From Methanomassiliicoccus luminyensis B10 (GTDB lineage Archaea; Thermoplasmatota; Thermoplasmata; Methanomassiliicoccales; Methanomassiliicoccaceae), in the NCBI RefSeq assembly GCF_000308215.1, contig NZ_CAJE01000021.1:62001-126000 (forward strand): 64,000 nucleotides of DNA. Direction: 5' to 3'. The position numbers and the translations under genes were made by a program. This document shows positions 62,991-63,454 of this stretch, one piece after another. Positions within the stretch are counted from its first letter, which is position 1, and the number at the start of each line of letters is the position of its first letter. A model generated the notes under the pieces. The model was not told where the DNA came from. It saw only the letters and a program-made list of their open reading frames with translations, and made no database searches.

Positions 62991-63221
62991 TCGCTCGCCG
63001 AGCTGGCTCGGTTCGTCCGGTATGAGGCGGAGGCGCTAGGAAAGCAAGTAACGCTTATCGATCCACACTACACCTCCCAGACCTGTTCCGAATGCGGTCA
63101 CGTATCTCGAAGCAACAGAACAGGAAGGCAGTTCAGCTGCATCCGGTGCGGGTTCACGCTCGATGCAGGCACGGGAAGGCGGCAGGCTCCGTGTCAGCGA
63201 GCCGAACGCAGCGAGCGATGA
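62991..63221 (+). pseudogene. TnpB (IS200/IS605-IS1341 type) C-terminal remnant
   Basis: An open stretch between stops at 62988 and 63219 translates to ARFVRYEAEALGKQVTLIDP, then HYTSQTCSECGHVSR and FSCIRCGFTLDAG: the RuvC-flanking segment and CxxC...CxxC zinc ribbon of TnpB. The expected DADxNAA motif is broken after LDAG, and the N-terminal two-thirds are missing, so the gene is dead. Confidence 0.8.
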
Positions 63222-63313: not shown

Positions 63314-63321
63314 TTATAAAT
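63314..63321 (+). promoter_or_regulatory. TATA box of the tRNA-Thr gene
   Basis: TTATAAAT about 33 nt upstream of the mature tRNA 5' end. Confidence 0.6.
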
Positions 63322-63350: not shown

Positions 63351-63454
63351 GCCACTGTAGCTCAGCGGCAGTCCGGTCGTTGATGGCCAGACCGCGAAAG
63401 AGCGACGGTTTCGTAAACCGTAGGCCGGGGGTTCGATCCCCTCCAGTGGCTCCA
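63351..63454 (+). tRNA. tRNA-Thr (anticodon CGT), with a D-arm insertion and encoded CCA
   Basis: Acceptor GCCACTG/CAGTGGC, D stem GCTC/GAGC, anticodon stem ACGGT/ACCGT with loop TTCGTAA (anticodon CGT, reads ACG), T stem GGGGG/CCCTC with loop TTCGATC, discriminator T, then CCA. A 29-nt insertion separates the D loop from the 3' half of the D stem; without it the tRNA is a normal 72-mer. G1-C72, C2-G71 and U73 fit archaeal threonine identity. Confidence 0.9.
63371..63399 (+). other. Probable tRNA intron in the D arm
   Basis: 29 nt between AGCGGCA and GAGC (boundaries can slide by one G). It can form a CGGTC/GACCG hairpin. Archaea have introns at such non-canonical positions, removed by the splicing endonuclease, but I could not draw a clean bulge-helix-bulge. 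Confidence 0.6.

Follow-up and report, generated by a model that had tools for sequence, protein, structure and literature searches.

The D arm of the tRNA-Thr(CGT) gene at positions 63351–63454 of the window (the whole stretch of 64,000 nucleotides that was analysed, from the human-gut methanogen Methanomassiliicoccus luminyensis B10, whose assembly comprises 2,620,233 bp in 26 contigs) is interrupted, and this interruption is confirmed as a real feature. Very probably, we are dealing with a working gene whose intron is of the ordinary, protein-spliced archaeal kind and lies at an unusual site, which we take to be tRNA position 20/21. The observations in favour of an intron are a bulge-helix-bulge (BHB) motif, its conservation and covariation, the single copy of the gene, the existence of intronless orthologues equal in length to the spliced product, and the presence of a splicing endonuclease gene; counted against it are the unconstrained fold, the helix register returned by RNAalifold and a central non-pair in 12 of 52 genes in combination with an enzyme type described as strict. 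In the proposed mechanism, the D arm of the pre-tRNA would fold as a BHB composed of the D stem, a 3-nt bulge, the central helix AGCG/CGCG, a second 3-nt bulge and the intron hairpin; a fused, homodimer-type splicing endonuclease would then cut both bulges and the exons would be joined to give the 75-nt mature tRNA. Cutting and ligation in the cell are predicted here from sequence, and the A.G opposition in the central helix would presumably be tolerated.

The interrupted tRNA-Thr(CGT) gene

The 29-nt insertion in the D arm is present as the first-pass annotation had described it, and the normal tRNA that was said to result from removal of 63371–63399 is indeed obtained: excision of the 29 nt leaves a 75-nt sequence (72 nt plus CCA), identified by ARAGORN as an intact tRNA-Thr(cgt). 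Removal of the BHB-defined segment 63370–63398 yields the identical product, and the intron is assigned to this latter segment because it is the one favoured by the BHB frame (Table 1). Archaeal tRNA introns are usually cut between the second and the third nucleotide of each bulge; with the cut after the second bulge nucleotide, the ends of the intron would be 63370 and 63398.

Table 1. Features of the tRNA-Thr(CGT) locus, in positions of the window
Feature	Position	Strand	Basis or pairing
TATA-like TTATAAAT upstream of tRNA-Thr(CGT)	63314–63321	+	sequence inspection
tRNA-Thr(CGT) gene, CCA encoded	63351–63454	+	sequence, ARAGORN, Rfam
Exon 1, tRNA nucleotides 1–20	63351–63369	+	BHB frame
Outer helix h', 5' strand = D stem GCTC	63360–63363	+	pairs with 63400–63403
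Central helix H, exon strand AGCG	63364–63367	+	3/4 pairs here
5' bulge GC/A (slash, cut)	63368–63370	+	BHB frame
29-nt intron, D loop, between nucleotides 20 and 21	63370–63398	+	BHB frame and cut rule
Intron helix h, 5' side: GTC, C mismatch, GGTC	63371–63378	+	pairs with 63385–63392
Intron helix h, 3' side: GGCC, A mismatch, GAC	63385–63392	+	pairs with 63371–63378
Central helix H, intron strand CGCG	63393–63396	+	pairs with AGCG
3' bulge AA/A (slash, cut)	63397–63399	+	BHB frame
Exon 2, nucleotide 21 to CCA	63399–63454	+	BHB frame, spliced product
Outer helix h', 3' strand = D stem GAGC	63400–63403	+	pairs with 63360–63363

Neither the tRNA model of Rfam nor ARAGORN in bacterial mode expects an intron in the D arm; on the unspliced gene, both report a damaged or truncated tRNA-Thr(cgt) starting from 63376, with an Rfam score of 29.8 bits for a cut-off of 29 bits. 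When introns are allowed, ARAGORN assigns the wrong isotype, 'tRNA-Arg'. A gene that standard tools barely call (29.8 bits) might be taken for a pseudogene in decay that has received an insertion at random, but this reading is hardly credible given that all exon stems are intact and CCA is encoded, that a TATA-like motif lies upstream, that the insertion site is kept across the order and that no other tRNA-Thr(CGT) gene was found in the genome. Another intact copy had been named by the first-pass annotation as evidence against an intron; the search of the genome gave none, the next-best match being tRNA-Thr(GGT) with 83% identity over 54 nt, in an assembly that is 99.69% complete as estimated by tool and lies about 17 kb below the published size (PMC4153887). 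The third Thr tRNA gene found in the genome is that of TGT (ARAGORN). Inspection by eye of ten tRNA-Thr(CGT) loci revealed an AT-rich motif resembling the TATA-like element upstream of all of them.

Downstream of the tRNA gene, on the minus strand, lies a ThiC gene (PF01964, E 7.1e-84). Just upstream, at 63006–63170 (+) of the window, there is a TnpB/Cas12f-like remnant (PF07282, E 1.4e-16), with stops further upstream in frame. Screening of the whole 64-kb window with Rfam gave a tRNA match only. A group I or II self-splicing intron was considered and rejected, 29 nt being too short and no catalytic core being matched by Rfam.

The bulge-helix-bulge motif and its distribution

The intron of tRNA-Thr(CGT) displays two 3-nt bulges with the flanking helices h and h', h' being a D stem of four pairs; the length of the bulges follows from a frame fixed by position, and pairing was tested on both sides. 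The intron hairpin is formed by GTC (63371–63373) and GAC (63390–63392), a C.A mismatch, GGTC/GGCC and a GTTGAT loop, while the central helix AGCG/CGCG contains an A14.G mismatch and three good pairs. The first-pass annotation saw no obvious strict BHB and considered that a relaxed motif would be needed; this finds no support here, as another register provides exact 3-nt bulges with one central pair (A14.G) missing, and all four pairs are present in 40 of 52 orthologues. The CGGTC/GACCG hairpin proposed there is in the wrong register and leaves no BHB; it was rejected as the splice structure, its cloverleaf having an energy of −32.3 kcal/mol vs. −38.5 kcal/mol with the BHB (6.2 worse). The insert is not a product of chance: 29 of 41 genomes of the order have an insert at this site, and 0.5% of 20,000 shuffles of the insert itself reach the pairing observed in B10.

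The 3-4-3 frame (bulge, central helix, bulge) fits all 52 distinct orthologous genes, B10 included, a number that covers the genes matched by a regular expression in which the exon letters were fixed, after collapsing identical sequences. Four central pairs are formed in 40 of these genes and three in the remaining 12, among them the B10 gene; the versions of the helix are AGCG/CGCT (30 genes), AGCG/CGCG (12), AGCG/CGTT (8) and AGTG/CACT (2). Intron length ranges from 16 to 31 nt and the intron helix comprises at least 3 bp in every case (52/52). When each gene was compared with 2,000 shuffles, the largest fraction that reached a gene's own pairing was 0.45%, the B10 motif being among the weakest of the 52 in the shuffle comparison. 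Covariation was analyzed on 26 distinct genes; alignment A1 excluded L053, L066 and one of the two identical genes of G016 and G033. Changes on both sides are seen at all six pairs of the intron helix, and one compensatory change from C-G to U-A occurs in the central helix. The covariation score of the whole structure is 0.253 vs. 0.132 in shuffles, none of the 500 being as high, and on four of five measures no shuffle reaches the motif, the fifth being reached by 47 of 500, with the shuffles in both comparisons ignoring relatedness. Moreover, the motif lies above all slid versions on all five measures.

Folding without constraints places the B10 pre-tRNA in a non-cloverleaf structure at −47.5 kcal/mol, 9 kcal/mol below the BHB cloverleaf (−38.5 kcal/mol), with a central-helix pair probability of 0.001; the mean pair probability of this helix exceeds 0.5 in 35 of the 52 genes. 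RNAalifold, run on the 26-gene alignment, shifts the register of the central helix slightly (18–47, 19–46). D-loop length is variable among tRNAs, which together with a default fold devoid of BHB would fit an insert that is retained and lengthens the D arm of the mature tRNA. We nevertheless consider retention very unlikely: the fixed 3-nt bulges and the conservation of the central helix on its intron side, with the rest free to vary (52/52), are readily explained only by a splice motif, exactly this piece is absent from the intronless orthologues, and in nine tRNA-Ala(CGC) genes the corresponding site is occupied by introns of a similar kind whose central helix is fully paired. In favouring a spliced intron, we weigh covariation above the thermodynamic folds because the latter ignore modification, proteins and tertiary contacts.

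Intron-bearing tRNA-Thr(CGT) was identified in 29 of the 41 Methanomassiliicoccales genomes searched, where G012 (67% complete) and G013, in which no tRNA-Thr(CGT) gene was found, are scored as misses. Spurious matches of the regular expression, in L067 at 771 and in L098 at 166, were disregarded. The gene is intronless in all nine genomes of the f2 family and in G040. All ten intronless orthologues align gap-free to the 75-nt spliced B10 tRNA, with 3, 4, 4, 4, 4, 5, 10, 10, 10 and 17 differences out of 75. The last value, far above the others, belongs to G040 (L098, G040:C34), and a divergence of 17/75 would be compatible with a possible replacement of this gene from outside. Scanning one genome per species (84,980 species) with the exact pattern yielded 47 stretches with an intron-bearing gene, whose titles refer to Methanomassiliicoccales, Thermoplasmatota/Thermoplasmata or Euryarchaeota, one being 'Methanomicrobia archaeon DTU008'; no bacterial or crenarchaeal title is present among these 47 stretches from the 84,980 species scanned. 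In a draw of 243 genomes from the phylum, the matches listed include full-length ones of at least 99.9 bits in 11 of 11 genomes of the order outside f2. Among the same listed matches, none of the 22 genomes of f2 shows a full-length high-scoring one, and neither does any of the 210 genomes from outside the order, where differently built introns are possible.

The splicing endonuclease and other tRNA introns

The genome encodes one PF01974 protein, 351 aa in length, at L106:1465–2520 (minus strand, G000:C21), with PF01974 and PF02778 each matched in two stretches. It aligns along residues 33–337 with the A. fulgidus alpha-prime-2 enzyme (2gjw/1r0v) and, as in this type, contains the N-terminal and catalytic domain units twice in one chain; the active form would be a homodimer. 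The endonuclease is present in 40 of the 41 genomes (B10 included), 39 of them with two matches, G034 having one match and G025 none. In chain 2cv8, which we take to be that of S. tokodaii, about 10 extra residues are found between the YGK and LQLS motifs, an insertion that we would read as the CSL, the specific loop of crenarchaeal enzymes. No insertion between these motifs is seen in the relatives whose alignment covers the site (29 loci, some partial), nor does the B10 enzyme, which has no insertion at the site with respect to A. fulgidus, show the CSL/ASL loop with its conserved Lys that is associated with broad specificity. Passages in reviews, including PMC4033280, describe fused dimer-type endonucleases as limited to canonical BHB motifs, and the strict enzyme type agrees with the strict 3-4-3 frame seen in most orthologues.

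Other tRNA genes of B10 are interrupted as well. Anticodon-loop introns are found by ARAGORN in the tRNAs for Asn, Tyr, Trp and Ser(CGA). The gene of tRNA-Lys(CTT) (L048:157–261, +, G000:C26) has a T-loop (59/60) intron with a full 3-4-3 BHB (TTCG/CGAA), and that of tRNA-Arg(TCT) (L109, minus strand, G000:C13:214000–214400) has inserts in both the anticodon loop and the T loop, the T-loop one with a full BHB. The D loop of tRNA-Leu(CAA) (L108, minus strand, G000:C12:691300–691700) is interrupted by about 25 nt that give no full BHB, and a relaxed motif is possible for this insert. Two further tRNA loci were noted, a partial tRNA-Asp(GTC)-like 3' fragment (L046, G000:C21:31461–31519), possibly a tRNA remnant or an integration site, and two identical tandem tRNA genes (L024, G000:C12:387273–387537) called tRNA-Ile(gat) by ARAGORN.

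Among relatives, D-arm introns at a shared site are found in tRNA-Ala(CGC) (L105, L134–L137, L218–L221) and tRNA-Thr(GGT) (L092, L095, L097, L222), being present or absent between close relatives. Those of tRNA-Ala(CGC), from nine relatives and at 20/21, all exhibit full 3-4-3 motifs (9/9), including AGTG/CACT and AGCG/CGCT. For the tRNA-Thr(GGT) introns of four relatives, also at 20/21, the frame was read by eye, the automated frame search having missed it owing to a T.T in the D stem; read in this way, the central helix is full in G036 (AGAG/CTCT) and contains an A.C mismatch in G019, G022 and G025.

It could be argued that the insert is removed only through a relaxed specificity acquired by the endonuclease of this order, a broken central helix being a normal substrate. 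The A.G of 12 of the 52 tRNA-Thr(CGT) genes, the A.C in the tRNA-Thr(GGT) introns of three genomes and the D-loop intron of tRNA-Leu(CAA), at which no motif was found with the BHB criteria used, would be accounted for in this manner. On the other hand, the canonical helix is complete in 40 of the 52 tRNA-Thr(CGT) genes, the T-loop introns of tRNA-Lys(CTT) and tRNA-Arg(TCT) in B10 are canonical, as are the tRNA-Ala(CGC) introns in nine cases out of nine, and the enzyme is devoid of the loop linked to broad specificity, so that we regard an acquired relaxation as unlikely and retain an ordinary BHB intron as the preferred reading.

Relation to known archaeal introns

The kind of intron described here and its 20/21 position are already known in archaea, the position being uncommon; 20/21 appears on the list of archaeal tRNA intron sites in the relevant part of PMC4090602. 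The first-pass reading of an intron at a non-canonical position is supported by our analysis, and its statement that few euryarchaea have introns outside the anticodon is in line with passages of PMC4090602 and PMC4033280, where euryarchaeal non-canonical introns are described as few. Canonical archaeal introns at 37/38, which also occur in B10, have the same geometry of 3-nt bulge, 4-bp helix and 3-nt bulge, whereas the tRNA-Thr(CGT) intron sits in the D loop and has its outer helix formed by the D stem. As described in parts of PMC4090602 and PMC8450103, the non-canonical BHB introns of Thermoproteales and others resemble it in being short and protein-spliced, in their BHB and in the use of site 20/21, and their hosts likewise have tRNAs with several intron sites per genome. 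However, most cases known from these sources are in Crenarchaeota and Thaumarchaeota, whose endonucleases are heterotetramers, whereas the present ones belong to an order of methanogens in which the enzyme is fused and of the alpha-prime-2 type.

According to the corresponding section of a 2014 review (PMC4033280), Korarchaeum cryptofilum is the only archaeon with both a homodimer-type endonuclease and non-canonical introns. The order studied here resembles this alpha-2 case in the coexistence of the two, but the Korarchaeum enzyme is said in the same section to carry a specific loop (PMC4033280), and none is seen in the alignments of this order. No report on tRNA introns of Methanomassiliicoccales was found in the titles and abstracts of the papers retrieved by full-text searches, although GtRNAdb may already list the B10 intron; the passages on introns in the genome comparison PMC4153887 mention only a group II intron. 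As far as searched, the order-wide spread together with a loop-less dimer-type endonuclease is new.

For annotation, it follows from the above results that standard ARAGORN and Rfam models truncate or mis-type this tRNA-Thr(CGT). The intron is of interest mainly because the enzyme that would cut it belongs to a class regarded as strict. In reviews, non-canonical tRNA introns are linked with broad-specificity endonucleases (parts of PMC4033280), and a methanogen order, one member of which was cultured from the human gut, that combines such introns with a loop-less dimer-type enzyme offers a direct test of this intron/enzyme rule. We tentatively propose that the loop-less alpha-prime-2-type enzyme might handle the whole non-canonical set, that is, the 20/21 introns of tRNA-Thr(CGT), tRNA-Thr(GGT) and tRNA-Ala(CGC) plus the T-loop introns at 59/60, the 20/21 introns coming and going among closely related genomes as though they moved from one tRNA gene to another. 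If true, this would break the accepted link of non-canonical introns with broad-specificity endonucleases, and would mean either that no site is closed to a strict motif or that the enzyme tolerates a broken central helix.
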